From NCBI RefSeq assembly GCF_029023785.1, contig NZ_CP118955.1:866501-930500 (forward strand): a stretch of 64,000 bases of DNA. The letters run 5' to 3'. The position numbers and the translations under genes were made by a program. This DNA is from Enterococcus faecium (GTDB lineage Bacteria; Bacillota; Bacilli; Lactobacillales; Enterococcaceae). How positions within the stretch are numbered: the first letter of the stretch is position 1; every line of letters starts with the position of its first letter. Shown here one piece after another: positions 25,838 to 49,145 of the stretch. The notes under the pieces are model-generated. The model worked only from the letters and a program-made list of their open reading frames with translations, was not told where the DNA came from and ran no database searches.

Positions 25838-26185
25838 ATGAATCCATTAATCGAAGAATTAACAAAAGAACAATTACGTTCTGACATCCCAGCGTTCCGC
25901 CCTGGTGACACTGTGCGTGTTCACGCAAAAGTTGTTGAAGGTACTCGTGAACGTATCCAGTTATTTGAAGGTGTTGTTATCAAACGCCGCGGTGCTGGAA
26001 TCAGCGAAACTTATACAGTACGTAAAGTTTCTAACGGAGTGGGCGTTGAACGTACATTCCCATTGCATACACCACGTGTTGCAAAAATCGAAGTAGTTCG
26101 CTACGGTAAAGTACGTCGTGCAAAATTGTACTACCTACGTGCATTACACGGAAAAGCTGCTCGCATCAAAGAAATCCGTCGTTAA
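25838..26185 (+). CDS. rplS: 50S ribosomal protein L19
   Basis: 115 residues: [55 protein letters not shown] and [20 protein letters not shown]. It bridges the two ribosomal subunits. ATG 25838 follows AAGGAGAAG. The last 50 bases of the gene form the integration target of the genomic island: they are duplicated at 49045-49095, and the native gene is kept intact by the left copy. Confidence 0.97.
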
Positions 26186-26236
26186 TCATCGTTATCAGAC
26201 TGAGAAATAACCCTTGGTATTCAAGGGTTCTTTTTT
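26136..26236. repeat. Island boundary repeat, left copy (rplS 3' end)
   Basis: These 101 bases cover the last 50 bases of rplS, its terminator (stem 26209-26229) and the first T residues. They recur at 49045-49145 with three substitutions and no gaps, 22,909 bases apart, in direct orientation. This is the expected trace of site-specific integration into the 3' end of rplS. Confidence 0.85.
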
Positions 26237-26237
26237 T
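26209..26237 (+). terminator. rplS terminator
   Basis: AACCCTTG and CAAGGGTT form the stem around TATT-like loop, followed by seven T. Confidence 0.85.
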
Positions 26238-26293
26238 GTTATCTGTTTTTTTATATTAACGATTTCGATTTGGTACATTTTTGATTATATTAT

Positions 26294-27345
26294 TTGTCAA
26301 ATTAAGCGAGACAAAACTTTCCATTTACGTAACTCAAAAAAACTTCTAATGGTGTTTGGTAATTTAGTGATTTTCTAGGGATATGGTTTCTTTTAGACGC
26401 AACGGATGAGATGAATCCTTGATTGACTTGGTTGAATTCCATTTCTTTTGGTAGTCCATCTTTTCGGAGGAGTCCGTTTGAATGTTCATTTAATCCCCGT
26501 TGGGAAGGCGTTCCTGGGTCTGCGAAATAAATATCAATATCATTCGTATTACTAATACTTTTCCAATTAGAGAATTCTTTTCCACAATCAAAGGTAATTG
26601 ATTTGAAAAGATTTTTGGGTACGGATTGAAGCCATTCATTAATCGAATTTTCAATATCAACTGCCTTACGGCCTTCTGGTTTCAAGGCGATAATGGCTTT
26701 TGAAAGTCGCTCAACGAGTGTGATGACGGCACTTTTATGGTGGATGCCGACAATCGTATCACCCTCTAAATGTCCAAATTCTTCTTCGAAAACGACATAA
26801 TCTTTTTTACGTTCAGAAATATTTCTTTTGAATGCCTGTTTTCCACGTTTTTCCTTATAACCATTTGGTTTTCGTTTTCCTTGCATCGGTAAATGTAAAA
26901 CATTGAATTCTCCCGTCTTAAACCGGCGATAGAGGGTACTTACTGAACAAGAGAAGGTTCGCTCTGCACGGCCAATAATGACGTCTGGGGTCCAACCTTC
27001 AGTTGATCTTTTTTCAATGTATTCTTTTTCCTCAGCAGGAAAAATGATTTCGGTTCTCCCACAACGTCGCTTATTTTCTTTGTATTGTTCAAAGTATTCA
27101 AGTGCTGTTCCACCACATTTGAGAAAGTTATAGACATTGTAAATTGTTTGGCGTCCACGTTTAAGCTGCTTCGCAACGATAGCAACCGGAGTTTCTTGAT
27201 GAAAATATGCTTCTATCATTACAAGCTCGTTTGGTGTAAGATGGGTATAAGTCATTTATGTTCACTCTCCTTGTATGCTTTAGCGGGTATTACAATTTGA
27301 GTGTAACATAAATGGCTTTTTTATTTGTCTCGCTTAATTATACAA
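26294..27345 (-). mobile_element. IS30-family insertion sequence, copy A
   Basis: About 1052 bases with ends TTGTCAAATTAAGCGAGAC and TTGTATAATTAAGCGAGAC as inverted repeats. An element of equal length and with an identical transposase lies inverted at 59060-60111. It sits 57 bases inside the left end of the island. Confidence 0.9.
26302..27255 (-). CDS. IS30-family transposase
   Basis: 317 residues. N-terminal helix-turn-helix (LTPNELVMIEAYFHQETPVA; VAKQLKRGRQTIYNVYNFLK), then the DDE core: GHLEGDTIVGIHHKS, ITFDCGKEFSNW and NEHSNGLLRKDGLPKE with the final Glu. The ATG follows AAGGAGAGTGA. It is intact and presumably active. Confidence 0.93.
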   Translation of the reverse strand: MTYTHLTPNELVMIEAYFHQETPVAIVAKQLKRGRQTIYNVYNFLKCGGTALEYFEQYKENKRRCGRTEIIFPAEEKEYIEKRSTEGWTPDVIIGRAERTFSCSVSTLYRRFKTGEFNVLHLPMQGKRKPNGYKEKRGKQAFKRNISERKKDYVVFEEEFGHLEGDTIVGIHHKSAVITLVERLSKAIIALKPEGRKAVDIENSINEWLQSVPKNLFKSITFDCGKEFSNWKSISNTNDIDIYFADPGTPSQRGLNEHSNGLLRKDGLPKEMEFNQVNQGFISSVASKRNHIPRKSLNYQTPLEVFLSYVNGKFCLA

Positions 27346-27697
27346 ACGGCGATATTAAATTTAATTGTAGGTGAACACGAATTTTATAAATATTTATGGT
27401 GTTAATGACAAATGATATCCGACTCCTCTTCATACGTTCTGGACTATTTGCTAATAGATTAAAATTTCAGCATCTATTTCTGACCATAAATAAATGAGCT
27501 GCCGAAAAGCTGCCAAATCAGACTTGAAAATAAAGGAACAAAAACTTTTAAGTTTCTGACCCCGTAACTCACACTTCAAAATCTTACTTAAAAAGAAGTC
27601 TGAAAGAAAAAAAGAGTATTCAAAATTTTTTTCTAACTAGCTACATCACATCTATGCATTGACACTCAAAGAACCAGAATAAGTCATCAGAAAGCAA
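27346..27697. other. Island sequence without a recognised gene
   Basis: About 350 AT-rich bases between IS30 and a degenerate IS3. I find no frame with coding character and no clear repeat. Confidence 0.5.
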
Positions 27698-29160
27698 GGG
27701 GGTGCGGACATAATCCTGGACGAAAAAATAAACTTAGGAGGAATGTCCGTGTGTTTTCCCACAAAGAGCGTGTAAGGGCAATTCAGTTATTTTTAAAATA
27801 CGATTGCTCTTATGCTGCAACCATTCGAGAATTAGGGTATCCGTCGATTGGTGCACTACGGAAATGGTATAAAGAGTATTTGGAATCCGGAGAGCTCCAT
27901 CAGGAGCACCGAAAAAAATCAAAGTATTCTGAAGAACAAAAACGAATAGCGGTGAATCATTATTTTGAATATGGTCAATGTTATGCACGAACCATTCGCA
28001 TGCTTGGTTATCCTAATAGAGAGTCCTTGCGGCAGTGGTGTGAAGAACTTGCACCAGGAGCTAGAAAACTCCGAAAAAGTGCGGTAAAGTTAACACAAGA
28101 CCAAAAAGAAGCTGTGTTGAAAAAATTCTATAAACCGCAAACTAATAGGAAAAATTTAGCCGAATCTGAAGGAATTAGTAGAGTTACTCTATATCAATGG
28201 AAAAACACGGTTCTTGGAAAGGATTTTCCATTGCGTATGACTTTAAAAAATCAGGAAAAACAAAAAGAGCTACTTTTAAAGGAAGTAGAAGACTTACAAA
28301 AACAAGTACACCAATTACAGCTCGAAAAAGCATTACTCGAAGGAGCGGCTGAACTGCTAAAAAAAGAAAAAGGCGTCAATCTTCTTTGTCTATCAAATCA
28401 AGAAAAAACGATATTGATTGATGCCTTACGAAATCAGTTCACCTTGAAAGAGCTTCTTCAACAGCTCCAGTTGCCTAAAAGCAGCTATTTTTATCAAAAA
28501 CAAGCACTTGAGAAACCAGATAAGTATTACAAAGAACGTCAATTAATTATCACGATTTTCAATCATAACTTCTGTGCGTATGGTTACCGTAGAATTCACC
28601 AAGCTTTAAAAAATATGGGTAAAAAGCTTTCTGAAAAAGTTGTACGTAGATTGATGACTGAGGAAAATCTATTTGTTAAATTTTCTAGACGAAAAAAGTA
28701 TTCTTCGTATGCTGGGGAAATTTCTCCTGCACACCCCAATTTATTAAATCGGAATTTTAAAGCAAAGAAGCCAAATGAAAAATGGTTAACAGATATTACT
28801 GAATTTAGAATTCCCGCAGGGAAAATCTACTTATCACCACTTGTCGATTGTTACGATGGTGCTATTGTTAGTTGGACTATTGGAACAAAGCCAACTTGCT
28901 TCACTCTATGTCTAAAAAGGGTTATTCACCAGATAATTCAGCGTGCGAAGGTTTCTTTGGACGATTAAAAAACGAGATGTTTTATCAACGTGACTGGAAG
29001 AATACAACAATCAATCAGTTTATAAACAAATTGGATGATTATATTCATTGGTATAATAATCAACGAATTAAGTTATCTTTAGGAGGGCTAAGCCCTCTTC
29101 AATATCGGAAGAAGCAAAGATATATTTGTTAAAAAGGTCCAAAAAAATATCCGCACCCCC
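27698..29160 (+). mobile_element. Degenerate IS3-family element
   Basis: About 1463 bases with inverted ends GGGGGTGCGGACAT and, reversed, GGGGGTGCGGATAT. The encoded transposase has lost part of its catalytic core, so the copy cannot move by itself. Confidence 0.8.
27751..29132 (+). pseudogene. IS3-family transposase with internal deletion
   Basis: The first frame (405 codons) has three helix-turn-helix repeats (IRELGYPSIGALRKWY; IRMLGYPNRESLRQWC; AESEGISRVTLYQWK), a coiled coil, HTH_21 and the first part of the rve core (WLTDITEFRIPAGKIYLSPL). At about 28885, after WTIGTKP, sequence jumps and shifts frame to NLLHSMSKKGYSPDNSACEG, which carries the last catalytic Glu. The segment with the second Asp (HSDRG-type) is missing, so the enzyme is dead. 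A second frame, 28872-29132, keeps the C-terminus. Confidence 0.8.
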
Positions 29161-29192
29161 TTTTTTTTGTAAAAAACTATTGCACAATACAA

Positions 29193-29357
29193 GTGGCCTA
29201 CGGCTATCGAAATTTCCATAACTTTCGAGCAAGAATTTATCTCATTCAAGGCTTGATCTTCCAAGTAAAACAAAAACCAGTTAAGCACTCTGCCTAACTG
29301 GTTATGACTAAATTTTCAGTTGTATCTTTCTCTACCAACACTAAATGTCGAAGAGCC
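29193..29357 (+). mobile_element. ISL3-family element, right-end fragment
   Basis: The frame 29193-29297 encodes VAYGYRNFHNFRARIYLIQG and a short tail, the C-terminus of an ISL3-family transposase. It is followed by an ISL3-like terminal repeat which, read inward, is GGCTCTTCGACATTTAGTGT (ends at 29357). The rest of the element is gone. Confidence 0.7.
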
Positions 29358-29366
29358 TTTTTTCGT

Positions 29367-30245
29367 TTATGAATGTAAGACCGCTTCTCGAGCCAATGCC
29401 AAACAACCGAGCGTTCCAGCGTTGTCTTCTAATGCTGGGGTCACGATATATTTGCTTAACTCAGGTGTTTCGACATACCCATTGACCAATTTTGCAAATG
29501 CGTCGTGGACGTTTTGCAGCATATGGCGTTGTTTCATCACACCACCGCCAAAAATGATCACATCTGGAGAAAACATCAAGGTTGTATTGTAGGCACATTG
29601 AGCAATATAGGAGGCTTCGATTTCCCAATAAGGATCATCTTCTGCAACCTCTTGTCCTTTTTTCCCTAAGCGTTTTTCGATGGCGGGTCCAGCGGCCATC
29701 CCTTCTAAACAGTTGCCATGAAATGGACAGCTGCCAGCAAAGTCATCTTTTGGATGAGGGACGACGAGCATATGCCCCATTTCTGGATGACTAAACCCTT
29801 CGATAAAGCGCCCTTCTTGTAAGGCACCGCCGCCAACACCCGTACCGATCGTATAGTAAACGACACTGCTCAATCCTTTGCCACTGCCGAAGACATACTC
29901 ACCATAGGCAGCCGCATTGACATCTGTTGTCCAAGAAATCGGGATCGGAAATTCTTTTTTCATGGTACCGATGAAATCAAAATTTTGCCATGCCAATTTC
30001 GGGGTCGAGGTAATGTACCCATAAGTGGCGGAATCGCGATGGATATCGATAGGCCCAAATGAGCCAATCCCAATCCCTGCTAAATCTGCTTGGTATTGTT
30101 TGAAGAAGTCAATGACTAAAGGCATTGTTTCCTCAGGTGTCGTTGTCGGAAAGCTCACTCTTTCCTTGATCGTCATTTCTTCATCGCCAATGGCACACAC
30201 AAATTTTGTGCCGCCTGCTTCAATTGCACCGTATAGCATAGACAT
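29367..30245 (-). CDS. scrK: ROK-family fructokinase
   Basis: 292 residues: AIEAGGTKFVCAIG phosphate loop, GIGSFGPIDI, WTTDVNAAAYGEYVFGSGKG, a ROK zinc site (HPEMGHMLVVPHPKDDFAGS, then CPFHGNCLEG) and GGGVMKQRHML. It phosphorylates the fructose released by ScrB. GGGAGAA precedes the first ATG. It lies downstream of scrA on the same strand, 257 bases away, as part of the island sucrose cluster; the spacer before it is AT-rich and holds no gene. Confidence 0.9.
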   Translation of the reverse strand: MSMLYGAIEAGGTKFVCAIGDEEMTIKERVSFPTTTPEETMPLVIDFFKQYQADLAGIGIGSFGPIDIHRDSATYGYITSTPKLAWQNFDFIGTMKKEFPIPISWTTDVNAAAYGEYVFGSGKGLSSVVYYTIGTGVGGGALQEGRFIEGFSHPEMGHMLVVPHPKDDFAGSCPFHGNCLEGMAAGPAIEKRLGKKGQEVAEDDPYWEIEASYIAQCAYNTTLMFSPDVIIFGGGVMKQRHMLQNVHDAFAKLVNGYVETPELSKYIVTPALEDNAGTLGCLALAREAVLHS

Positions 30246-30502
30246 TTCTCCCTTTATTTTAGAATGAAATCACTAAATAAATGACTATATATCATATTTA
30301 AATTATTTTTTTATTTAGTAACATGACAAGTAAATAACTACTATTTTTTCTTTTTGAATTTTTATCATTTTTTAAAATTCTAATAATTTTTCATACAATT
30401 GATATATGAAAAGATTAAATAAAATGTTATTCTCAAATATTTGATTAATCTATATTATTTGATTTTGGAAAGAAAATTCCATCTTTACTCAGGGAAATAT
30501 AT

Positions 30503-32449
30503 TTATTTGATTTCAAGTAAATCAGTACCCTCAGTGACTGTATTTTCAGCTACTATATTTACTTCTGAATAATCCGAAGTATTGGTCACAATAATCATTG
30601 TTGTATCATCAAGACCTTCTTTCTCAATCATTGAACGGTCAAATGCTCCAAGAATATCGCCTTTTCTAACTTTTTGATTAGTAGTAACTTTTTGTGTAAA
30701 TCCTTTTCCTCCCATTGATACAGTATCAATACCAATATGAATTAGAACTTCAGCACCATTATTTGATTTAATACCATAAGCATGTCCAGTTTCAAACGTG
30801 AGTTGAATAGTACCATCTACTGGAGAATGGACCGTGTTTCCATTTGGTTTAATGGCAATCCCTTTTCCCATAGCTTCTGATGAAAAGACTGGATCATTTA
30901 CTGAAGAAAGACTAATCACTTTACCAGAAATGGGACTAACAATTGTTTCTGATGAAACTTTTGTTTGTGTTGATTCAACATCAGTAGATATTGGATCTGT
31001 TGTTGCTACTTTTGAAGAATTAACTGGTGTTTGTTCAGCAATTTCTTCTGCTTTAAAGATACCAGCAGCTTTTGTTTTACCGTAGAAGTAAGTAATTGCA
31101 AAAGCAACTACAAAGCTAATCAATTCACACAATACGTAAAATGGAATAGATGTTGCATTAATTGAAAGAAATCCCAAGAAACCTGCTGAACCAAGTGAAA
31201 CAGCAACTACTTTAAGTAATCCTGCTACTGCTGTAGCAATTCCTGAACCAATTAAAGCACAAAAGAATGGAAAGCGGTATTTTAAGTTAACTCCGAACAA
31301 GGCAGGCTCTGTAATTCCAAGAAGTGCTGAGACACCCGCAGAGGAAGCAAGACTTTTTGTCTTAGAATTTTTAGTTAAGAACCAAATGGCAAATGTTGCA
31401 GCACCTTGAGCAACGTTTGCCATAGATGCAACTACAAAGATAAAGTCTCCATGTCCGATACCATTTGTCCACGCTGAAAGTAATTGAGTTTCAATAGCTG
31501 GAAATGATTGATGTAAACCAGTCATGACTATAAGTGAATATGTTCCTCCAAAAATACCCATTCCAATAAATCCAGTAGTGTTATATAGCCAAACAATAAT
31601 GTCTGTAATTCCATTAGACAACAATAACATTACAGGGCCAATAACTGTGAAAGTCAAAAATCCAGTAATCATTACTGATAATAATGGCGTGAATGTAAAG
31701 TCAATAGATGATGGCAATTTTTTATGAAAGAATTTTTCTAATATAGATAATATCCAAACAGCTGCTAAAACTGGAATAACTTGATAAGCATAGTTTGTTT
31801 GTGAAACATGATAACCAAAAATATTCCAATATTCAGTTGAGCCACCAAGATCTGGTGTTGTCATGATCATACCAATTGCAGCACCAAGAAATTGGTTTGC
31901 TCCAAAACGTTTAGCAGCTGAAATACCTACTAAAATTGGTAAGAACATGAATGGTGCAGCGGACATCAGTTGGATCATTGAGGAAATACCTTCAATCGCA
32001 GGATACATTTCTTCAATTGATTTTGGTCCAAAAAGTCCAGCAGCTGTTAAAAAGTTTTGTAATGCCATTAATAAACCACCTGCAACAAGGGCAGGTATAA
32101 TTGGAACAAAAATATCTGATAATAATTTAATTAATGCCATAATGGGGTTGAATTTTTTATCTTTACTAGCAATTTGTTTTAAATCATCTGTTGAAATTTC
32201 CGAAAGTCCAGTTTTTTTGATAAGTTCGTCATAAACGAAATTAACATCACCTGCACCGATAATCACTTGATATTGTCCATCAATTTTAAATGTGCCTTTC
32301 ACATCTGGATTTTCGTCTAAAGCTTTTTGATTCACTTTCGTGTCATCTTTTAGTACGAGACGAAGACGTGTAGCGCAGTGTGCAGCTGCAATAAGGTTAT
32401 CTTTTCCGACCGCTTGTATTACGTCGGAAGCTACTTTACTGTAATTCAT
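30503..32449 (-). CDS. scrA: Sucrose-type PTS transporter EIIBCA
   Basis: 648 residues from ATG 32449, after AAGGAGTGA; an upstream in-frame ATG (32500) lies in the operator region and is rejected. Order: EIIB with the phospho-Cys motif [11 protein letters not shown] (about 26-36), a ten-helix EIIC domain (about 105-450), linker, and EIIA with the phospho-His in [16 protein letters not shown]. It imports and phosphorylates sucrose to sucrose-6-phosphate; specificity is inferred from the adjacent scrB. The fused EIIA makes it independent of a separate glucose-type EIIA. Confidence 0.88.
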
Positions 32450-32475
32450 TCGAATCACTCCTTTTTTATTTTTAC

Positions 32476-32596
32476 GTGAAAACGGTTCACTGAAATGCAA
32501 ATTTATTTTAGCATATCTTAAAAATATGTCAAACGTTTGTCATATAGTTTATTTTTTTAAATGAAATGATTGATTTTTCAACGGAAAACGTTTACC
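32476..32596. promoter_or_regulatory. Three LacI-type operators between scrA and scrB
   Basis: Palindromes with a central CG are found at 32476-32490 (GTGAAAACGGTTCAC), 32528-32541 (GTCAAACGTTTGTC) and 32583-32596 (GGAAAACGTTTACC). They lie about 52 bases apart, near five helical turns, which would permit looping. The probable ligand is the ScrR protein encoded by the cluster; the third may also serve CcpA. Confidence 0.65.
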
Positions 32597-32633
32597 ATAC
32601 TAGTTGTAAAAAGATAAATTGAAGGAGTAAAAT

Positions 32634-34073
32634 ATGAACTTACCTCGAGAAATACGATATCGTGCTTATTCTGATTGGACTAAAGATGAGATGGATAAAA
32701 TTAAGGATAATGTAAAACGATCACCTTGGCGTGCTAGCTATCATATCGAACCTAAAACAGGATTGTTAAACGATCCTAATGGTTTTTCTTTTTTTAACGG
32801 AAAATATACGCTTTTTTATCAAAATTGGCCATTTGGAGCTGCTCATGGGTTGAAAGAATGGGTACACAATGAATCAGATGATTTAATTCATTTTCATGTA
32901 ACAGGAGCAGAACTTCTTCCAGACACAAAACGAGATAGCCACGGCGCTTATTCCGGTTCTGCATATGAAATAGAGGAGAATCTATTCTTACTCTATACAG
33001 GAAACGTTCGAAATGAAAATTGGGAACGTGATACACTTCAAATCGGAGCATGGATGGATAAAGACTACAACATTACGAAAGGTGAGAATGTTCTTATTCA
33101 TAAACCTGCTGATGTAACTGATCATTTTCGTGATCCACAAATGTTTAATTATGAAGGACAATTGTATGCGATTGTTGGAGCACAAAATTTAGAAAAATCA
33201 GGCTTTATCAAACTTTACAAAGCGGATGACAATAACGTGGAAACATGGGAGGAAGTTGGCAACCTTGATTTTGGCGGCACTGGTTCAGAATACATGATTG
33301 AGTGTCCAAATCTAGTATTTGTAGACAAAAAACCTGTTCTCATTTATTGTCCTCAAGGGTTGGATAAATCTGAGCTAAATTATGGGAATATCTATCCGAA
33401 TACTTTTAAGATCTGTCAATCGCTTGACATAGAAAAAGTAAAACTTGTGGGCGCTTCAGAAATTCAAAATCTTGATTATGGATTTGAAGCGTATGCGACT
33501 CAAGGATTCAATACTCCTGATGGTCGTGCTCTGATTGTCAGTTGGATTGGACTACCTGATATCGATTATCCAACTGATAAGTATGATTATCAGGGAGCAA
33601 TGAGTCTTGTAAAAGAACTTTCAATAAAAGATGGTAAACTTTACCAATATCCAGTAGAAGCTATTACATCATTACGTGCTAGTTCTGAACAATTTACAGC
33701 AAAAGCAGAAACAAATAATACTTATGAGCTTGAACTAACTTTTCCTCCAAATCAGAAATCGGAGTTACTTCTTTTCTCTGATAGTAAAGGAAATGGACTT
33801 AGCTTGATTGTAGATACCAAAGAAGGAAAAATTATTTTAGATCGCAGCAAAGCAGGCATTCAATATGCCACTGACTTTGGTACGATTCGTGAATGCTCAA
33901 TTGATACTAAAGAAACAACTGCTAACATTTTTGTAGATAACTCAATCATTGAGATTTTTATTAATAAAGGAGAAAAAGTGTTTACTAGTCGTGTATTCCC
34001 TGAAAATCACCAAAATGGTATTCAAATCAAATCAGGCGAACCTACTGGAAAATACTTTGAATTAAAATATTAA
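32634..34073 (+). CDS. scrB: Sucrose-6-phosphate hydrolase (GH32)
   Basis: 479 residues. Nucleophile motif LLNDPNGF (Asp47), transition-state motif HFRDPQMF and acid/base motif MIECPNL, followed by a C-terminal beta-sandwich (IFVDNSIIEIFINKGEKVFT). It splits sucrose-6-P into glucose-6-P and fructose. GAAGGAG precedes the ATG. It is divergent from scrA and followed by scrR after one base, so scrB-scrR are co-transcribed. Confidence 0.93.
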   Translation: MNLPREIRYRAYSDWTKDEMDKIKDNVKRSPWRASYHIEPKTGLLNDPNGFSFFNGKYTLFYQNWPFGAAHGLKEWVHNESDDLIHFHVTGAELLPDTKRDSHGAYSGSAYEIEENLFLLYTGNVRNENWERDTLQIGAWMDKDYNITKGENVLIHKPADVTDHFRDPQMFNYEGQLYAIVGAQNLEKSGFIKLYKADDNNVETWEEVGNLDFGGTGSEYMIECPNLVFVDKKPVLIYCPQGLDKSELNYGNIYPNTFKICQSLDIEKVKLVGASEIQNLDYGFEAYATQGFNTPDGRALIVSWIGLPDIDYPTDKYDYQGAMSLVKELSIKDGKLYQYPVEAITSLRASSEQFTAKAETNNTYELELTFPPNQKSELLLFSDSKGNGLSLIVDTKEGKIILDRSKAGIQYATDFGTIRECSIDTKETTANIFVDNSIIEIFINKGEKVFTSRVFPENHQNGIQIKSGEPTGKYFELKY

Positions 34074-34074
34074 A

Positions 34075-35037
34075 ATGGTAGCAAAATTAACTGATGTCGC
34101 TGAATTAGCTGGAGTTAGCCCAACAACCGTTTCACGCGTCATTAATAATAAGGGATATTTATCAGAAAAAACAAAACAAAAAGTTCATGAAGCTATGAAA
34201 ACTCTTGGTTATAAACCAAATAATTTAGCACGTGGACTTCAAGGAAAGTCACCTCAGCTTATTGGTCTTATTTTTCCTAATATTAGTAATATCTTTTACT
34301 CTGAACTCATTGAGTATCTCGAAATAGAGTTATTTAAACATGGATATAAAACGATTATTTGCAATAGTCAAAATGATCCTGCTAAAGAGAGAGAATACAT
34401 TGAAATGCTTGAAGCCAACCAAGTTGATGGCATAATCTCATCAAGCCATAATCTTGGAATTGCTGATTATGAGCGTGTGAGAGCACCTATTGTTGCTTTT
34501 GATAGAAATTTAGCTCCTAATGTTTCCATTGTTTCTTCAGATAACTTTGAAGGGGGAAAACTTGCAGCTAAGACTTTACAAAAAAATGGTTGTCAAAATA
34601 CCATTATGATTACAGGAAATGATAACACGGATTCTCCCACAGAATTACGTGCACTAGGTTTTTCTTTTCAAAATCCAAATGGAAAAATTTTCAAAATTCC
34701 TAATAATCTGTCTACTATCCGTCGTGAAATGGAAATAAAGTCAACTATTATAAATCACAAACCAGATGGTATTTTTGTTTCTGATGATTTAACAGCCATT
34801 CTCACTATGAAAATTGCTCATCAACTTAAACTTAATATCCCAGAAGATTTAAAAATTATTGGATACGATGGTACCTCTTTTATTGAGAAATTTTTCCCAC
34901 AATTGACAACAATAAGACAACCAATTGATGAAATTGCAAGTCTTATTGTTGATATTCTTCTGAAAAAAATTAAAGGCGAAAAGACAAATAAGGATTATAT
35001 TTTACCAATCTCAATACTTTCTGGAGGAAGTATTTAA
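34075..35037 (+). CDS. scrR: Sucrose operon repressor, LacI family
   Basis: 320 residues. LacI helix-turn-helix at the N-terminus (KLTDVAELAGVSPTTVSRVI NNKGYLSEKT with hinge LARGLQGK), then a periplasmic-binding-like effector domain (IGLIFPNISNIFYSELIEYL; VDGIISSSHNLG; GYDGTSFIEKFFPQLTTIRQ). It probably represses scrA and scrB through the nearby palindromes. It begins directly after scrB and has no separate terminator before the IS3 element. Confidence 0.88.
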   Translation: MVAKLTDVAELAGVSPTTVSRVINNKGYLSEKTKQKVHEAMKTLGYKPNNLARGLQGKSPQLIGLIFPNISNIFYSELIEYLEIELFKHGYKTIICNSQNDPAKEREYIEMLEANQVDGIISSSHNLGIADYERVRAPIVAFDRNLAPNVSIVSSDNFEGGKLAAKTLQKNGCQNTIMITGNDNTDSPTELRALGFSFQNPNGKIFKIPNNLSTIRREMEIKSTIINHKPDGIFVSDDLTAILTMKIAHQLKLNIPEDLKIIGYDGTSFIEKFFPQLTTIRQPIDEIASLIVDILLKKIKGEKTNKDYILPISILSGGSI

Positions 35038-39195: not shown

Positions 39196-39275
39196 ACAAA
39201 CTCCTCTACAATTTCAACTTTTCTCCATTATACTCCAAAATAATAAAAAAAACTCCTAAATACTCTATTTTTATC

Positions 39276-39330: not shown

Positions 39331-39355
39331 ATAAAAAATTGGAGTGTTTAGGATA

Positions 39356-40045: not shown

Positions 40046-40058
40046 GGGGAGAAATAAA

Positions 40059-41561: not shown

Positions 41562-41573
41562 GAGGTTTTTAAT

Positions 41574-42050
41574 ATGTTTGAAATTTTCAAAAAGAAAAAA
41601 CAAGAAACTTTTTATGCACCTTGTTCCGGAAAAATCATTTCCATCACAGAAGTAAATGATCCTGTCTTTTCACAAAAATTACTAGGTGATGGTTTTGCCG
41701 TCATACCTGATGGTTCAAAAATTTATGCTCCATTGGCTGGTCGAGTAACAAATATATTTCCTACTAAACATGCTATTAATATAAAAAGCAACTCAGGCAT
41801 TGATTATTTGATTCATATTGGAATTGATACAGTCGAATTACAAGGAGAGCCTTTTTCGATTTGTGTTCAAGAAAATGATGAGGTTACTCTTGAAACCTCG
41901 TTGGTTGATGTGGATTTTGACAAAATAATAAAATCTGGTAAAGATACTTCTGTTATAGTTGTTTTTCCGGAGAAAAATCAGTTCAATGATTTAATAATAG
42001 ATAATGGTCGAATTGCTCATGGGAATTCATGTGGAAAAATCACTTTTTAA
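41574..42050 (+). CDS. PTS EIIA component, glucose (Crr) type
   Basis: 158 residues: APCSGKIISITEVNDPVFSQ, DGFAVIPDGSKIYAPLAGRV and the phospho-His motif [14 protein letters not shown]. It passes phosphate from HPr to the EIIB of the preceding protein. It starts 12 bases after the EIICB gene, behind TAGGAGG, and ends the operon. Confidence 0.9.
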   Translation: MFEIFKKKKQETFYAPCSGKIISITEVNDPVFSQKLLGDGFAVIPDGSKIYAPLAGRVTNIFPTKHAINIKSNSGIDYLIHIGIDTVELQGEPFSICVQENDEVTLETSLVDVDFDKIIKSGKDTSVIVVFPEKNQFNDLIIDNGRIAHGNSCGKITF

Positions 42051-42111
42051 AAAAGTGTATATAAAAAGCTATAAAATAAGCTAAATAGGATATTTGTCAA
42101 ATGAAGTTGGT

Positions 42112-42147
42112 GAACAGAAAGAACTGTTTTCTTTCTGTTCATTTTTT
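42112..42147 (+). terminator. Terminator of the nanE-PTS operon
   Basis: GAACAGAAAG and CTTTCTGTTC pair around AACTGTTTT and a T run follows. Confidence 0.8.
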
Positions 42148-42205
42148 TATTTTATTAGTAATGATTCCCCATGCCAAATCATGATCCGTAATTTAAAGTT
42201 ATGAT

Positions 42206-43258
42206 TTGTCAAATTAAGCTAGAATAAAATGCTTCTTGTACATAGCTCAAAAATATTTCGATTGGTGTTCTGTAATTCAATGATTTTCTTGGAATATGAT
42301 TACGTTGATTGCTGACACTGGAAATAAATGTCTGATTCACTTCTCTAAAATCCATTGATTTCGGCAGTCCATTACGACGCAGAATCCCGTTAGAATTCTC
42401 GTTTAATGGGCGTTGAGAAGGTGTTCCAGGGTCCGCAAAATATATATCAATATCATGTTGGTTACTAATGGCTTTCCAGTTAGAAAATTCTTTTCCACAG
42501 TCAAACGTAATAGATTTAAAGAAGTTTTTAGGGAAGCGAGAAAACCATTGATTAAGGGCAGTTTCAATATCTAATGCCTTACGGCCGTTGGGTTTAATCG
42601 TGATAATGACTTTAGATAATCTTTCAACTAAAGTAATGACGGCACTTTTATGATGAATGCCAACGATCGTATCACCTTCAAGGTGACCAAACTCAGAATT
42701 GAAATCAGGATAATTATCAGGTCGATCATGGATTGAGCGCTGATACTGTTGTTTTCCCCGTTTTTCCTGATGGCCATTGGGTTTTCTTTTACCTTTCATC
42801 GGTAGTGTGTCAATATCAAATATTCCTTTAGAAAATAAACGATAAAGTGTTCTCATACCGCATGAAACAGGCCTTTCTTTTCGCCCGATAATGACGTCAG
42901 GCATCCAACCAAGAGTGACTTTCTCTTTAATGTAATCTACTTCATGAGCAGGTAATTGAATGACTTTTCTACCACATTTTTTCTTATTTTCTTTATACTG
43001 GTGCCAATAATCAAGAGCAGTCTTGCCTTGCTTGAACTTATTGACTACATTATAAATAGTTTGTATAGCACGTCCCATTCGGTTAGCGATTTCAACCGGC
43101 TTATTATGTTGAAGATAATATGATTCTATCATTGTCAGTTTGTCTATGGTAAGATGTTTGTAGGTCATTTATGGTTACACTCCTTTGTTTTCTTTCGTCG
43201 GAAATACAATTTGAGTGTACCATAAATGCCTTTTTATTTTTCTAACTTAATTTTACAA
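42206..43258 (-). mobile_element. IS30-family insertion sequence, second type
   Basis: About 1053 bases with ends TTGTCAAATTAAGCTAGAA and TTGTAAAATTAAGTTAGAA. It is related to, but clearly different from, the IS30 copies at 26294 and 59060. Confidence 0.88.
42209..43168 (-). CDS. IS30-family transposase (second type)
   Basis: 319 residues with helix-turn-helix (HLTIDKLTMIESYYLQHNKP; IANRMGRAIQTIYNVVNKF) and DDE core GHLEGDTIVGIHHKS, ITFDCGKEFSNWKAI, NENSNGILRRNGLPK. The catalytic half is nearly the same as in the other IS30 type, while the N-terminal half has diverged, suggesting different end recognition. Confidence 0.92.
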   Translation of the reverse strand: MTYKHLTIDKLTMIESYYLQHNKPVEIANRMGRAIQTIYNVVNKFKQGKTALDYWHQYKENKKKCGRKVIQLPAHEVDYIKEKVTLGWMPDVIIGRKERPVSCGMRTLYRLFSKGIFDIDTLPMKGKRKPNGHQEKRGKQQYQRSIHDRPDNYPDFNSEFGHLEGDTIVGIHHKSAVITLVERLSKVIITIKPNGRKALDIETALNQWFSRFPKNFFKSITFDCGKEFSNWKAISNQHDIDIYFADPGTPSQRPLNENSNGILRRNGLPKSMDFREVNQTFISSVSNQRNHIPRKSLNYRTPIEIFLSYVQEAFYSSLI

Positions 43259-43354
43259 TTCGCGTGTATTATAAGAAAAGCTAAGAATGATAATTAATCG
43301 ATTTTCAAAATATATAATAAAAAGATACAATGAGTTAACTATACAAATCAAAAG

Positions 43355-43391
43355 AAGAAGCAGGGGGATAGCATACCTATGCTTCTTTTTT
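43355..43391 (+). terminator. Terminator upstream of the polymerase gene
   Basis: AAGAAGCA and TGCTTCTT pair around GGGGGATAGCATACCTA and a T run follows. Confidence 0.6.
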
Positions 43392-43422
43392 ATGTATTTA
43401 GCTATTTCTTCTTTACAATATC

Positions 43423-43434
43423 GAACATATGTTT
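43423..43434 (+). promoter_or_regulatory. SOS (LexA/DinR) box of the Y-family polymerase gene
   Basis: CGAACATATGTTTG (box core 43423-43434) differs from the Gram-positive consensus GAAC-N4-GTTC only at the last base. It overlaps a likely -10 (GTATAA, 43435-43440) and lies 30 bases before the start codon. Confidence 0.65.
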
Positions 43435-43463
43435 GTATAACGTGAAAGAATGGAGTGTTATTT

Positions 43464-44789
43464 ATGATGGATTATTCAAAAGAGCCAGTAAATGATTACT
43501 TTTTAATCGATATGAAAAGCTTTTACGCAAGTGTCGAATGTATAGAAAGAAATTTAGATCCATTAACAACAGAACTTGTTGTTATGAGTCGATCTGATAA
43601 TACTGGTTCAGGATTGATATTAGCTTCTTCTCCTGAAGCAAAAAAGCGGTATGGTATTACAAATGTGAGTAGACCACGTGACTTACCACAACCATTTCCT
43701 AAAACACTACACGTTGTTCCACCACGTATGAACCTATATATCAAGCGAAATATGCAGGTAAATAATATTTTCAGAAGATATGTGGCTGATGAAGATCTAC
43801 TGATTTACTCGATCGATGAATCAATCTTAAAAGTGACCCGATCACTGAATCTTTTTACGACTGAAGGAACACGAAGTCAGCGAAGGAAGAAGCTCGCTCA
43901 AATGATCCAAGAACGTATTAAAGAAGAGTTAGGTTTGATTGCTACGGTAGGCGTCGGCGATAATCCCCTTTTGGCTAAACTAGCCTTAGACAATGAAGCA
44001 AAGCATAATGAAGGATTTATTGCGGAATGGACGTACGAAAACGTTCCTGAAAAAGTATGGAATATTCCTGAAATGACGGACTTTTGGGGCATTGGCTCTC
44101 GAATGAAGAAAAGACTCAATCAGATGGGGATTATGAGCATTAGAGATCTTGCTAACTGGAATCCATACACCATTAAGAGCCGTTTAGGTGTGATTGGCTT
44201 ACAGCTATACTTTCATGCAAATGGTATTGATCGAACTGATATAGCAATCCCACCAGAACCGACAAAAGAAAAGTCCTATGGTAATTCACAAGTGTTGCCA
44301 CGTGATTATACTAGAAGAAATGAAATCGAGCTGGTTGTAAAAGAAATGGCGGAACAAGTAGCCATTCGTATCAGACAGCATAATTGTAAAACAGGATGTG
44401 TCCATTTAGACATTGGTACATCGATCTTAGAAACGAGACCAGGGTTCTCACACCAGATGAAAATCCCTATCACAGACAATACAAAGGAATTGCAGAATTA
44501 TTGTCTTTTCTTGTTTGATAAGTATTATGAAGGACAAGAAGTCCGCCACGTCGGAATCACTTACAGCAAGCTATTTTATACTGATTCGCTTCAGCTGGAT
44601 TTATTTAGTGATCCACAAAAGCAAATTGACGAAGAAAATTTAGATAAAATTATTGACAAGATTCGGCAAAAATATGGTTTTACGTCGATTGTACATGCTT
44701 CTTCAATGTTAGAAGGCGCTAGAAGCATTACTAGAAGCACACTTGTTGGTGGTCATGCGGGCGGAAATGGGGGAATTAAAAATGATTGA
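43464..44789 (+). CDS. Y-family DNA polymerase, UvrX/UmuC-like
   Basis: 441 residues. Palm motifs FLIDMKSFYASVECIERN and YSIDESILKV carry the metal-binding acids, with a helix-hairpin-helix (FWGIGSRMKKRLNQMGIMSI) and the little-finger domain after about residue 240. The C-terminus has QLDLFSDP, a beta-clamp-binding motif. Such enzymes copy damaged DNA with low fidelity and are frequent on enterococcal plasmids. ATG 43464 follows GGAG by eight bases; an upstream GTG is rejected. The SOS box implies damage induction. Confidence 0.9.
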   Translation: MMDYSKEPVNDYFLIDMKSFYASVECIERNLDPLTTELVVMSRSDNTGSGLILASSPEAKKRYGITNVSRPRDLPQPFPKTLHVVPPRMNLYIKRNMQVNNIFRRYVADEDLLIYSIDESILKVTRSLNLFTTEGTRSQRRKKLAQMIQERIKEELGLIATVGVGDNPLLAKLALDNEAKHNEGFIAEWTYENVPEKVWNIPEMTDFWGIGSRMKKRLNQMGIMSIRDLANWNPYTIKSRLGVIGLQLYFHANGIDRTDIAIPPEPTKEKSYGNSQVLPRDYTRRNEIELVVKEMAEQVAIRIRQHNCKTGCVHLDIGTSILETRPGFSHQMKIPITDNTKELQNYCLFLFDKYYEGQEVRHVGITYSKLFYTDSLQLDLFSDPQKQIDEENLDKIIDKIRQKYGFTSIVHASSMLEGARSITRSTLVGGHAGGNGGIKND

Positions 44790-45132
44790 TTACAATGATC
44801 GTGGTCGTTTAAAGTGGGCAGGGTTTTATTTATCTGATCATACTGAAGAGATCGATGCGGACAATGAGCAACGTACCAATCATAATTTGGCAAAAGAACA
44901 AATGACGACTGAAGATATTGTGAAAGTATTGAACGCTGCAGTCATAAAAAATAGATCAGTATGTATCCAAAAAGAAGAACGAAACGCCGAAGGATACTAT
45001 CCATACGATATTGTTGGAAAGATCTTAGGTAGTGATGAGCTGGGAATCTACGTTGGAAAAGACAAAATTCACTACGACGAAATACGGCACATTGAATTTT
45101 ACCAGGATAATAAGTGGAGTCGACTAGAATGA
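44782..45132 (+). CDS. YolD-like protein
   Basis: 116 residues starting MIDYNDRGRLKWAGFYLSDH, the pattern of YolD-like proteins (DRGxxKWxxFxxPEH). They are often paired with UvrX/UmuC-type polymerases and are thought to help them. It overlaps the polymerase gene by eight bases behind GGGGGA, so the two are translated together. Confidence 0.85.
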   Translation: MIDYNDRGRLKWAGFYLSDHTEEIDADNEQRTNHNLAKEQMTTEDIVKVLNAAVIKNRSVCIQKEERNAEGYYPYDIVGKILGSDELGIYVGKDKIHYDEIRHIEFYQDNKWSRLE

Positions 45133-45168
45133 ACATTATCCAGCAATATGAGCTAAAGTATATAACAT

Positions 45169-46208
45169 ACCCGTGGTGCTAGTTAATTTTTTCCTAGAGG
45201 AAAATGTCTAAACATGTTGGTAAATCAACAAAAAAACGCATATAGTAGTCTCAAAACTCCCAAGAAATGAGGACTACATATGCGTTCATCAAAATATACT
45301 GAACATTATACAGATACTTTTATAACATTCAAGGAAATTATGAGAACTGTTTCTAACATATACCACAATTGTGTACCAGATAAGATTAAAAACCGAAGAA
45401 ATACTGATCAACTGAAGCAACGCGATACAGTGATTATTGCTTGTGTTATATGGGGCATAATTAATGGCTATACTAGCCAAAGAGCCACGTATAGAGCGGT
45501 TTGTTCCGTCTTATTTCCTAATGGTGACTTTCCTAGTAGGAGTCGATTCACTCGCTTAAGTTCAAACTTAGCTTACACTATCAAGTTTATTCGATACTTT
45601 TTCATCAAGAAGCTCACCAAAGGTGAACTAGTCGGAATTATAGATAGTTTTCCTAGTCCATTATGTAAGCCAGTTAGAAATAGACAAGCAAAACTATTGA
45701 ATCAAATAGCCAAAGTTGGCTATAACTCAACAAAAAAATCTTATTTTTATGGTCTTAAAATTCATATGATCGTTACTAAGACTGGCTTTCCGATTACTTA
45801 CTCAATCACGAATCCAGGTGTCCATGACGTGAAAGTGTTAGAGACTTTATCGGAAGAAGCGAATCTTCCCAATATCCTAGGGGACAAAGGATATATTAGC
45901 CATAAAATCCATGAAAAGCTTGCCCTTAAGGGCATTACTATATCCGTTCCGCCACGTAAAAACATGGATAAATCAGAAAAACTAGACCACAGCTTACTTG
46001 GAAAACAAAGAAAAACAGTTGAGACTGTTTTTTCTTCCTTAGAAAAATTAGGTTGTCAAAATTTCAACTCACGTTCTGTTAAAGGGCTAGAGAGTAGATT
46101 TGAAAGCATATTACTGGCTTACAGTGTTCTATTAAGTCGAGCACAACGACGTTTTGAAGGAACTTTGAGATATTCTTTAGGATATTAAAATTAACTAGCA
46201 CCACGGGT
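45169..46208 (+). mobile_element. IS982-family insertion sequence
   Basis: 1040 bases with perfect 22-base inverted ends beginning ACCCGTGGTGCTAGTTAATT. The flanks TATAACAT and TATAATAA are similar but not a clean target duplication. It lies downstream of the yolD-like gene; length and ends fit ISEfm1-type elements, though the name is not proven. Confidence 0.9.
45280..46188 (+). CDS. IS982-family transposase
   Basis: 302 residues with the DDE_Tnp_1 core: GELVGIIDSFPSPLCKPVRN, NILGDKGYISHKIHEKL and TVETVFSSLEKLG. Intact frame. AAATGAGGAC precedes the ATG. Confidence 0.92.
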   Translation: MRSSKYTEHYTDTFITFKEIMRTVSNIYHNCVPDKIKNRRNTDQLKQRDTVIIACVIWGIINGYTSQRATYRAVCSVLFPNGDFPSRSRFTRLSSNLAYTIKFIRYFFIKKLTKGELVGIIDSFPSPLCKPVRNRQAKLLNQIAKVGYNSTKKSYFYGLKIHMIVTKTGFPITYSITNPGVHDVKVLETLSEEANLPNILGDKGYISHKIHEKLALKGITISVPPRKNMDKSEKLDHSLLGKQRKTVETVFSSLEKLGCQNFNSRSVKGLESRFESILLAYSVLLSRAQRRFEGTLRYSLGY

Positions 46209-46270
46209 TATAATAATAGTCGTAATAGCTGATGAATCAAATTCCCAATCTTTTTACGCATTTAAACAGC

Positions 46271-46296
46271 GAAGCGTCTTCGGACGCTTCTTTTTT
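46271..46296 (+). terminator. Terminator, probably of the polymerase operon
   Basis: GAAGCGTC-TTCG-GACGCTTC with a six-T tail. The IS982 copy separates it from the yolD-like gene it probably served. Confidence 0.75.
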
Positions 46297-46381
46297 GTAC
46301 TACAATCAATATTTATATTTGGATTACCTCCAGATAGTTTCTTTGTATAAAAAAACGACTCATAATGAGTCGTTTAATAGA

Positions 46382-46639
46382 TCAGAGTAATAAGTCATTG
46401 ATTTCTTTAAATTCTTTATCAAGTTCTTTTTCATCATATTTTTCATATTTATCAGCTTCATGAAGAACTTTTTTAATTTCATGAATAGCCTTTCGTTCAA
46501 CTAACCATTTTTTTAGGTTATGTTTTTTTTCTGGATTTTCAGATAACGTATCAAGTTCGTCTAACTCTTTATCCAGTTTATTGACAACAGAAACAATTTT
46601 GTTTACAACTTTTTCTTCTTTGTTTTCTAAATTTGACAT
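46382..46639 (-). CDS. Small charged helical protein of unknown function (copy 2)
   Basis: Identical 85-residue product to 8323-8580, ending in TGA instead of TAA. Family not recognised. Divergent from bsh copy 2. Confidence 0.55.
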   Translation of the reverse strand: MSNLENKEEKVVNKIVSVVNKLDKELDELDTLSENPEKKHNLKKWLVERKAIHEIKKVLHEADKYEKYDEKELDKEFKEINDLLL

Positions 46640-48374
46640 TTATCTTCACGTCCTTTTTATTTGATAATTTAAGTATAGAACTTTGATATAGTTTATACAA
46701 ATAAAAACGCTTCTTTGTGTATTCTGTGCTTTTCTTTTGGAATGAGGAAAACTTTGGAGTAATATGAACGTGGACAGAAAAATATTTAGGAGGAATAAAC
46801 TATGTGTACGTCTATTACTTATGTAACAAGTGATCATTATTTTGGAAGGAATTTTGATTATGAAATATCTTACAATGAAGTAGTCACTATTACTCCAAGA
46901 AATTATAAGTTGAATTTTCGAAAGGTAAATGATTTGGATACTCATTATGCAATGATTGGTATTGCCGCTGGTATAGCTGACTACCCTCTTTATTACGATG
47001 CGACAAATGAAAAAGGATTGAGTATGGCTGGACTAAATTTTTCTGGGTATGCTGATTATAAAGAAATACAAGAAGAGAAAGACAATGTATCTCCTTTTGA
47101 ATTTATTCCTTGGATTTTAGGACAATGCTCAACAGTAGGAGAAGCTAAAAAATTGTTAAAAAATATCAATTTAGCAAATATAAATTATAGTGACGAACTT
47201 CCTTTATCCCCTTTACATTGGCTATTAGCTGATAAAGAAAAATCAATTGTCATTGAAAGTATGAAAGATGGACTTCATATATATGATAACCCTGTGGGCG
47301 TTCTTACCAATAATCCTTCATTTGACTATCAATTATTTAATTTAAACAATTATCGTGTCTTATCGAGTGAAACTCCTAAAAATAATTTTTCAAATCAAAT
47401 AAGTTTGAATGCCTATAGCCGCGGTATGGGAGGGATAGGCTTGCCTGGAGATTTATCCTCAGTATCTCGTTTTGTTAAAGCGACTTTTACGAAGCTGAAT
47501 TCTGTATCTGGAGATTCAGAGTCAGAAAGTATTAGTCAATTTTTCCATATCTTAGGTTCAGTAGAACAACAAAAAGGTTTGTGTGATGTTGGTGATGGAA
47601 AATATGAATATACAATTTATTCTTCTTGTTGCAATGTTGACAAAGGAATCTATTATTATCGAACATATGAAGACAGTCAAATTACTGCAATTGATATGAA
47701 TAAAGAAGACTTAGATAGTCATAAGTTAATTAGTTATCCAATTATAGAAAAACAACAAATTAAATATATAAATTAGTTAATGTGTTGTGATTGATTATTT
47801 AATATAGATATAATACAAAAAGGCAAAGATATTTTCAAAACATTTTTTCTTGATGTGATATCCTTGTCTTTTTTGTAATGTTTTTAACTTATTGCTTTTG
47901 CAAAATTTATTTACCTGTTTTCTGGATCAACGATAGTGTATATTATGCTATCCTTGTTTGGATTTTAGGACGTTTAAAGAGGCACTTTTTTACATAACTT
48001 AATCCATAGACCTTTTAAGCCTGCTGTGAGATAATAATAAAGAAGAGTTTAAAGCGCACCCCAAACCACTTCCCCATAAGTGTATTACGCTTTAAACTCT
48101 TTTATATTTGAATTCACTAAGAAGCATACCATATTTTTGAAAAAAAGTGAGAAAAAAGGCTTATAATTAGGATTTAGAGTAATTAATTAGATGTTTATTT
48201 TATAGGACTGATATTATAGATTACAAATAGTATCGTATTTCGCAATCTTAAAATTATCTTCTTACTGTGAATAAGATAATAAAATTTGTATTTGTCCTTT
48301 TTAGGTAACTTATTTTAATCTATATACCTTTCTGGATCAACGAAAGTATACTTTATATAGTCATAACGCCGATG
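46386..48374. repeat. Duplicated 2-kb bsh segment, copy 2
   Basis: Direct repeat of 8327-10315 (offset 38,059). Just left of both copies a CGACTCA/TGAGTCG hairpin is present but with different flanking bases, so the ancestral contexts were related. On the right, copy 2 continues into a complete gene (48315-48614), whereas copy 1 breaks inside it; copy 2 therefore looks like the older right context. Confidence 0.9.
46802..47776 (+). CDS. bsh: Bile salt hydrolase, copy 2
   Basis: Identical at the protein level to the copy at 8743-9717, with the same upstream 160 bases and the same downstream terminator, so both copies should be expressed equally. All choloylglycine hydrolase catalytic residues (Cys2, Arg16, Asp19, both Asn, Arg) are kept. 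This copy lies inside the rplS island. Confidence 0.95.
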   Translation: MCTSITYVTSDHYFGRNFDYEISYNEVVTITPRNYKLNFRKVNDLDTHYAMIGIAAGIADYPLYYDATNEKGLSMAGLNFSGYADYKEIQEEKDNVSPFEFIPWILGQCSTVGEAKKLLKNINLANINYSDELPLSPLHWLLADKEKSIVIESMKDGLHIYDNPVGVLTNNPSFDYQLFNLNNYRVLSSETPKNNFSNQISLNAYSRGMGGIGLPGDLSSVSRFVKATFTKLNSVSGDSESESISQFFHILGSVEQQKGLCDVGDGKYEYTIYSSCCNVDKGIYYYRTYEDSQITAIDMNKEDLDSHKLISYPIIEKQQIKYIN

Positions 48375-48614
48375 ATCGCTTCGAGCGTCTGGCACGTCAG
48401 TCACGACATCAAACAAAAAATATACGTCTTTCTTCATTCTAGTTTTCGCAGCAGGGATTTTAAAGTAGTTCTTATTAGAATAGTAGAGATTGATTAATAA
48501 GCTATCTTCGATTGCTAAAAAGAAAACTTCTGAATTCCATACTTTATAAAAATCTTTGATAAATCTATTCGAATGGTCAAATTTAAACCATAATTGCGTC
48601 TCATTAAAAAGCAT
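48315..48614 (-). CDS. Small protein of unknown function, second gene of SOS-boxed pair
   Basis: 99 residues (MLFNETQLWFKFDHSNRFIK to TFVDPERYID), no membrane segment. ATG 48614 has GGAG eight bases upstream; ATG 48620 is too close. It overlaps or abuts the gene before it, so the two form an operon. A relic with the same N-terminus (MEGKTQLWFKHVPSNKFF) lies at 60112-60180 and C-terminal relics lie in the 9.8-10.3 kb islet. I do not recognise a family. Confidence 0.55.
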   Translation of the reverse strand: MLFNETQLWFKFDHSNRFIKDFYKVWNSEVFFLAIEDSLLINLYYSNKNYFKIPAAKTRMKKDVYFLFDVVTDVPDARSDHRRYDYIKYTFVDPERYID

Positions 48615-48619
48615 AACCA

Positions 48620-48850
48620 TTACTCCGATCTATTTTTAAACTTAGTTTCTACCTCTAATATATATCGAGTTTTTATTTTGCCTTCAGAGAATACTGTTTC
48701 TTTTTTTGCAGTTACAGGTTGGTTATTTTCGGAAAAAGCTAATATAGCTAAGATTGAAACATCCATCTGGAATTTATCTTTTTTGCTGCTTTTCTCATAA
48801 AAGTCTGCATATTCGTCACTGATATTTTTTCTAATAAATTCTTCCATCAT
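48620..48850 (-). CDS. Small protein of unknown function, first gene of SOS-boxed pair
   Basis: 76 residues from ATG 48850 (MMEEFIRKNISDEYADFYEK to LEVETKFKNRSE), acidic, no membrane segment. GAGGTGA stands five bases upstream. A perfect SOS box is 26 bases before the start. The pair lies about 200 bases from the right island boundary and points into the island. Function unknown. Confidence 0.55.
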   Translation of the reverse strand: MMEEFIRKNISDEYADFYEKSSKKDKFQMDVSILAILAFSENNQPVTAKKETVFSEGKIKTRYILEVETKFKNRSE

Positions 48851-48875
48851 AAAAATCACCTCAAAACGATTATAC

Positions 48876-48887
48876 GAACTTACGTTC
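48876..48887 (-). promoter_or_regulatory. SOS (LexA/DinR) box
   Basis: GAACTTACGTTC is a perfect GAAC-N4-GTTC box. On the minus strand it is followed by CGTATAAT, a good -10, and then the GAGGTGA ribosome site, so it should repress the two small genes until DNA damage. Confidence 0.7.
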
Positions 48888-49044
48888 TTATTGTAAAGCG
48901 ATATTTGAGGGGCAAAAAGGGGGCAAAAATGCGTTTACCTTTGATATATCTCAGATTGAACATAGTGTTTATTTTATGTCGGTATTGTTGATTTATAGCT
49001 GTTTTGAGGGTGTTAGATACATAATAGAATATAGTGGTTTTGTT

Positions 49045-49145
49045 TACGTGCATTACACGGAAAAGCTGCTCGTATCAAAGAAATCCGTCGTTAATCATTG
49101 TTATCAGACTGAGAAAGAACCCTTGGTATTCAAGGGTTCTTTTTT
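49045..49145. repeat. Island boundary repeat, right copy (duplicate rplS end)
   Basis: Ungapped copy of 26136-26236 with three changes (C/T, C/T, T/G). It holds a non-functional rplS tail, encoding the [14 protein letters not shown] residues, and its terminator. Native chromosome resumes at about 49146. Confidence 0.85.

Follow-up and report, generated by a model that had tools for sequence, protein, structure and literature searches.

According to the available sections of the respective papers, prophages of the GBSInt3 type insert at the 3' end of rplS, the gene of ribosomal protein L19, in group B Streptococcus (PMC7487436), and a prophage lies between gph and rplS in S. pyogenes (PMC8115907). 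In Enterococcus faecium, the esp pathogenicity island is located at rpsI (PMC2858755), and bile salt hydrolase genes (bsh), for an enzyme activity that counts as probiotic (PMC9262338), were found inside prophage regions, for which transfer by phages was proposed (Kondo et al. 2021, PMC8386436). Cis-mobilizable elements (CIMEs) are decayed integrative and conjugative elements (ICEs) or integrative and mobilizable elements (IMEs) that kept the attachment sites attL and attR, lost their integration and transfer genes, and take part in tandem accretion (PMC5704250). Here, we analyzed a block of accessory genes at rplS of E. faecium (assembly GCF_029023785.1, contig NZ_CP118955.1). It occupies positions 26136-49145 of a 64,000-nucleotide stretch (866,501 to 930,500 of the contig), referred to as the window, in whose numbering coordinates are given. 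The block is very probably the shell of a decayed prophage whose middle was replaced by megaplasmid DNA via recombination at insertion sequences (IS).

The block resembles the GBSInt3 prophages in being a prophage site at the rplS 3' end. Their att core, as given in the part of the source at hand, is absent from the repeat in the window, however, and they are not enterococcal. Like the esp island, it lies at the 3' end of the gene of a ribosomal protein and is bounded by an imperfect direct repeat (54 bp in the esp island). That island has another target gene, and the sections available link it to elements of the conjugative and integrative type; the block, by contrast, has the ends of a phage. 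The accessible part of Kondo et al. names neither an rplS site nor a right-end position for the bsh prophages, and the phage in the window is decayed with bsh kept. Phage-encoded bsh does not appear in the available parts of PMC11959909, PMC13098223, PMC12773493 and PMC9262338. Literature searches for an rplS prophage site returned streptococcal mentions only and no enterococcal one. The carriage of bsh by prophages and the use of rplS as a site by streptococcal phages are known already; in our judgment, the new point is a clear example with an unusually clear assembly history.

A repeat of the rplS end bounds the block

The block is flanked by two direct copies of a 101-nt sequence (26136-26236 and 49045-49145), which are 97% identical, lie 22,909 nt apart and differ at three positions (26164, 26190 and 26208). 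Exact runs inside the repeat reach 28 nt. When the window was simulated 20 times with a first-order Markov model, the maximum length of an exact repeat was 15-19 nt (20/20 runs), which excludes a chance origin. No third copy was detected in a search of the strain's whole genome. An earlier reading of the window from sequence only had described this repeat and its mismatches correctly, and the scattering of the repeat over the genome, which it had named as a counterindication, was not seen.

The left copy (attL, plus strand) comprises the rplS 3' end, stop codon and terminator. The rplS gene itself (25838-26185, plus strand) translates into an intact protein of 115 aa and has its last 50 bases inside the repeat. 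The right copy (attR, plus strand), likewise identified by repeat search, is a displaced rplS tail with terminator; it keeps the final rplS codons and the stop and still encodes 19 residues. Chromosomal DNA with a DUF2087 gene follows (49146-49646, plus strand).

The rplS tail was present in all 15 genomes of a genus search. A second tail copy of at least 100 nt was found in two of them, the genome of the window and Enterococcus sp. 10A9_DIV0425 (G014). In G013 the extra match comprised just 29 nt close to a contig start. Genome G005 carries an empty site, where a single rplS tail runs straight into the DUF2087 region and aligns with window positions 49045-49729 as one piece (85%). The sequence-only reading had suggested looking for this arrangement. 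The DUF2087 region was beside the tail in none of the remaining chromosomal rplS loci that were aligned. In G009, 169 nt after rplS resemble the phage arm described below (94.7%), though a single tail was found. Part of the left phage arm may therefore be captured host sequence.

The ends of the block match phages with a tyrosine integrase

Two wastewater contigs, unverified records labeled as Listeria phages, contain both ends of the block joined together. OR848098 has a single internal tail copy; it matches the right end of the block (48025-49145, 91.6%), continues through the tail into the left arm up to 26287 (26136-26287, 96%) and then into an integrase open reading frame (ORF) of 381 aa. 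In OR846730 the contig has a tail copy at either end, of 105 and 77 nt, as expected of a linearized circle. The joined ends have the form expected of a phage attachment site (attP). More generally, loci L006-L009, L031 and L032 (OR846730, OR848098, OR847222, OR847748, OR849008) are 'Listeria phage' wastewater contigs with enterococcal rplS, prophage or bsh sequence, so that the host labels look unreliable.

The phage integrase is a tyrosine recombinase (PF00589, 1.2e-26; phrog_1). Close relatives (92-100%) were found in 21 IMG/VR contigs and two GTDB genomes. In four of these 23 loci (L116, L123, L128 and L129) the sequence goes on beyond the integrase, through the same arm to a whole or partial tail. 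The others show no arm or tail, nearly all because the contig piece stops at the integrase stop codon; in L127, which has a partial integrase, the sequence continues without a tail. The order rplS, tail, arm, integrase was also observed in L128 and in L129, which is the locus of Enterococcus sp. 10A9_DIV0425 with its two tail copies. L128 is binned as Candidatus Enterococcus avicola; its 95 rplS bases ahead of the tail are identical to those of the window, and the bin label may therefore be wrong. Together with OR848098 these loci are integrase-bearing relatives of the kind that the sequence-only reading had proposed to look for. Comparison of the empty site, the joined phage ends and the occupied relative shows that a phage integrated at rplS, presumably by recombination of its attP with the gene end.

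Within the block no PF00589 or PF00239 match passed the genome profile search, in line with the earlier statement that no integrase gene is visible, and the block is therefore a remnant and not a working prophage. A serine integrase, which the earlier reading had left open beside a tyrosine enzyme, was rejected as maker of the repeat on account of the PF00589 class of the neighboring phage integrase and the missing PF00239 match; a site-specific enzyme that restores the coding end was rightly supposed.

The phage right end carries bsh

Apart from the repeats, phage DNA is confined to 26237-26287, the remnant of the left arm, which in relatives is followed by the integrase gene, and to the right end at 46209-49044. 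Positions 46208-48850 are 99.0% identical to the integrase-bearing contig IMGVR_UViG_2558860789_000001 (L052/L108), and 46208-49145 match G014 in pieces (98.2-99.8%). The right end contains bsh copy 2 (46802-47776, plus strand), an intact ORF of 324 aa with a PF02275 domain, whose closest solved relative, 4wl3, is a bile salt hydrolase. It is followed by a DUF5960 gene (phrog_16386; 48315-48620, minus strand), assigned by domain and phrog matches, and by a small ORF of 79 aa (48620-48859, minus strand), the DNA of which also occurs in L007, L008 (OR848098) and L001. Of the 31 ORFs of at least 80 aa in the block, 19 were scanned against Pfam, and no phage replication, structural or lysis genes and no relaxase or conjugation domains were detected among them.

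In relatives, bsh is part of the phage. The 42.3-kb contig IMGVR_UViG_2558860789_000001 has the integrase at one end and bsh with the right end at the other. Relatives of bsh were found in 18 viral loci, 15 of them at 93% identity or more (two of these partial at contig ends), and nine of 16 aligned bsh-bearing viral loci run on into the DUF5960 gene. In just one of the 21 contigs with the integrase was bsh found as well, so that bsh is an optional gene close to the right end; of these contigs 11 are at least 30 kb long, and the rest may not reach it. In OR848098 another gene (L008:932-1633, phrog_9243) takes its place. The right end of G014 extends to the second tail, with a masked stretch between bsh and the DUF5960 gene and one piece beyond the tail, so this copy appears rearranged as well. 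Judging from these relatives, bsh copy 2 came with the phage.

In four of nine relatives compared, bsh is nearly identical at the nucleotide level in spite of a more divergent trmD-rplS region (bsh/trmD-rplS: G005, 99.6/95.1%; G014, 99.8/81.6%; G004, 99.4/83.9%; G012, 99.4/82.0%), so that bsh must have moved between species recently. In these four, phage right-end DNA surrounds bsh. The other five show this difference to a lesser degree or not at all, with 91.0/82.7% (G011), 82.7/82.3% (G010), 84.2/85.3% (G009), 72.8/82.7% (G007) and 72.9/81.8% (G006).

Further bsh copies were observed in the strain. A second decayed prophage at 5044-10790, bounded by its own 25-bp repeat (5044-5068 and 10766-10790, 92%), contains a C-terminal integrase fragment (5087-5353), an endolysin fragment, a DUF4231-type gene and bsh copy 1 (8743-9717). 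The two bsh-bearing remnants are 99.6% identical over 8294-10315 and 46355-48374. A third bsh-like gene lies outside the window (C1:950315-951286 of the same genome); its protein is 83% identical and is interrupted by one internal TGA.

The interior of the block matches megaplasmids

The tract from 26288 to 46208 (about 19.9 kb) matches E. faecium megaplasmids in overlapping pieces. All eight plasmids concerned (L030, L104, L106 and L131-L135) are of replicon type rep_cluster_893. The accessory cargo listed by the sequence-only reading was confirmed.

The sucrose part (27352-35130) comprises an IS3-type remnant (27751-28968), scrK (29367-30245, minus strand), a sucrose phosphotransferase system (PTS) gene (30503-32500, minus strand), scrB (32634-34073, plus strand) and a LacI-type regulator gene (34075-35037, plus strand). 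Together with the preceding IS30 it is contiguous, from 26279 to 35060 or 35130, in three of four fetched plasmids (L132, L134 and L135; 99.4-99.5%); the fourth, L133, is fragmented. The sucrose tract occurs once in the strain's genome, and thus no donor copy is left there. The adjoining nanE part (35131-42202) contains a split IS3 (35207-36585), an IS200/IS605 element (36726-37331), an IS30 fragment (37599-37709), an RpiR-type regulator gene (38377-39195, minus strand), nanE (39344-40045) and the genes of PTS components IIBC (40059-41561) and IIA (41574-42050). Positions 28143-42202 are contiguous in plasmid L030 at 99.66%. The third part (43266-45168, plus strand), with the gene of a Y-family DNA polymerase (43455-44789), is 99.6% identical in L104 and L106, where it is located after the sucrose genes. 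The resolvase relics reported earlier are weak; they consist of a PF00239 match below threshold (37399-37656) and of a gene annotated as 'resolvase' in the corresponding plasmid DNA.

Altogether, 1,630 plasmid records share sequence with the block. The best of them covers 70% of it, and none reaches 80%.

Phage and plasmid sequences meet at IS elements

As listed by the sequence-only reading, the block contains seven IS units or remnants. In addition to the four mentioned above, these are an IS30-family element at the left phage/plasmid junction (26288-27351, minus strand; transposase 26302-27255), an IS30-like IS6770 (42203-43265, minus strand, boundaries approximate; transposase 42209-43168) and ISEfm1 of the IS982 family at the right plasmid/phage junction (45169-46208, plus strand; transposase 45280-46188). 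At the left joint the phage match stops at 26287 and IS30 begins at 26288. At the right joint ISEfm1 ends at 46208 and phage DNA comes next.

The inner sides of both elements are also found on plasmids. Six plasmid records cover at least 80% of the IS30/plasmid junction; the identity is at least 99.3% in five of them and 89% in the sixth. For the junction between the polymerase side and ISEfm1, 850 records matched, of which NZ_CP034948.1 alone (100% identity) covers at least 80% of the query. Since the phage/plasmid joints fall on IS ends and the IS/plasmid joints recur on plasmids, recombination mediated by IS elements is the best explanation for the exchange and for the loss of the integrase.

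The IS30 at the left junction is flanked by different bases (TTA and ATA) and thus shows no target duplication, whereas equal 3-base flanks were present at five of six other IS30 copies of the genome. In plasmids L132 and L135 the IS30 copy has ATAT on both sides, the right flank being the same as in the window. Among the 40 of 63 candidate matches that were scored, the genome contains at least seven near-full-length copies of this IS30 on contig C1 and at least two partial matches on C2. IS30 copies are a likely driver of further rearrangement.

Probable docking of another phage at the same left end

Contig L001 (43.2 kb), from another strain, was examined at its two ends. It starts with a full-length integrase ORF. 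At its other end, right-end sequence of a relative phage (91.6%) is joined to one tail with the alleles of the left window copy, followed by the left arm and IS30, inside which the contig stops. Over window positions 26136-27255 it is 99.9% identical. L001 fits a phage integrated ahead of the same left end, as accretion might produce, tandem docking being the better reading and not proof. A circular phage with IS30 in its arm is disfavored, as the contig begins with the stop codon of the integrase and breaks off at the boundary of the IS30 gene, like a trimmed provirus. The rplS address thus seems to be active still, which qualifies the earlier view of the block as trapped: the best match of the strain to the phage integrase is 26% identical, and the block probably cannot leave alone, but the site does not appear dead.

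A second integrase at the rplS tail on plasmids

Two plasmids, NZ_CP040905 and CP138458, contain the DUF2087 region together with the rplS tail, the latter from about position 49072 onward. In NZ_CP040905 this stretch is rich in sugar genes, and the gene ending beside the tail is annotated as integrase, being 25% identical to the phage integrase. Both plasmids have one core copy per whole record (at most one mismatch), so the tail looks like a captured right junction. Apparently, a second, dissimilar integrase uses the rplS end. Megaplasmids L004 and L005, in which the rplS tail and the DUF2087 region stand among sugar genes, indicate that DNA of the rplS locus also passes into plasmids of the class that matches the interior of the block.

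Discussion

We propose that a temperate phage with a tyrosine integrase, carrying bsh near its right end, recombined its attP with the rplS end, which gave rise to the 101-bp repeats. At a later time, recombination at two IS elements, an IS30 in the left arm and an ISEfm1 close to the right end, would have exchanged the core from integrase to lysis genes for about 19.9 kb of rep_cluster_893 DNA; the junctions are observed, and the order of steps is our proposal. The outcome would be a chromosomal att-flanked island lacking an integrase, with functions for sucrose, N-acetylmannosamine-type sugar and bile salts. Recombination between prophage and plasmid IS copies is the simplest account, and a two-step cointegration with deletion would look alike.

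The sequence-only reading had seen a single island holding all accessory genes; its ends and bsh come from a phage, the sugar genes and the polymerase from IS-bounded megaplasmid DNA. An arrival of the block as one mobile element, be it an ICE, an IME or a plasmid with its own integrase, which brought all cargo and then lost the integrase, was rejected as highly improbable. NZ_CP040905, with its dissimilar integrase abutting the rplS tail and DUF2087 in a sugar-gene-rich stretch, speaks for such an element, but both ends of the block match the phage and not this plasmid, the plasmid sequence begins and ends at IS ends, and plasmid coverage does not exceed 70%. An integrase together with relaxase or transfer genes, as in an ICE or IME, was found neither in the scanned ORFs nor in the genome integrase searches. 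Delivery of the plasmid DNA as a composite transposon or IS-bounded translocatable unit instead of homologous recombination is improbable, if slightly less so. IS elements indeed stand at both junctions; however, they belong to different families (IS30 and IS982), IS30 lacks a target duplication, and each element joins plasmid DNA on one side to phage DNA on the other. A composite transposon, which needs two copies of the same IS and a target duplication, was rejected on these grounds.

An origin of the island, already complete, in another strain and its transfer by large chromosomal recombination is a real possibility, although we would not expect it, and it is compatible with a prophage shell filled by IS recombination. 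L001 matches the IS30-containing left end at 99.9% identity, and large chromosomal exchange in E. faecium is reportedly the subject of one published paper (PMC5038250). No other strain with the complete island was found in the searches made, and such an arrival would shift the event elsewhere and leave the mechanism unchanged.

Several observations weigh against replacement of a prophage core by IS recombination. The whole tract was in no plasmid record found, so that the replacement must have taken several steps or involved a plasmid not yet seen. Prophages with IS30 alone or ISEfm1 alone at these places were not found, and the junction of ISEfm1 with the phage right end was in no viral contig. 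One of the six control IS30 copies also lacks a duplication. The flanks of ISEfm1 in the window differ, but this says little, because a copy on plasmid L131 with the same left flank and one of two copies in L105 are likewise without duplication (the other has one of 9 bp). The longest integrase ORF of G014 has just 235 aa and its alignment to OR848098 is broken, and this genome is therefore no proof of a working enzyme.

Like a CIME as described in the available part of the source, the block retains attL and attR, has lost its integration genes and shows no transfer domain in the 19 scanned ORFs. CIMEs descend from an ICE or IME, whereas the block would be a decayed prophage with phage ends. 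It is conceivable, though rather unlikely, that the island acts as a phage-driven analogue of a CIME, the shell of which lets a related phage dock at rplS and possibly excise and carry megaplasmid genes, linking megaplasmids, chromosome and phages.

The block would represent a case, at base resolution, of a chromosomal island that gains plasmid genes without an integrase, the prophage providing the address and IS elements the swap. It allows the phage contribution (bsh) to be told apart from the megaplasmid contribution (sugar genes). The enterococcal rplS end, in turn, is an integration site and apparently serves two dissimilar integrases as their target.

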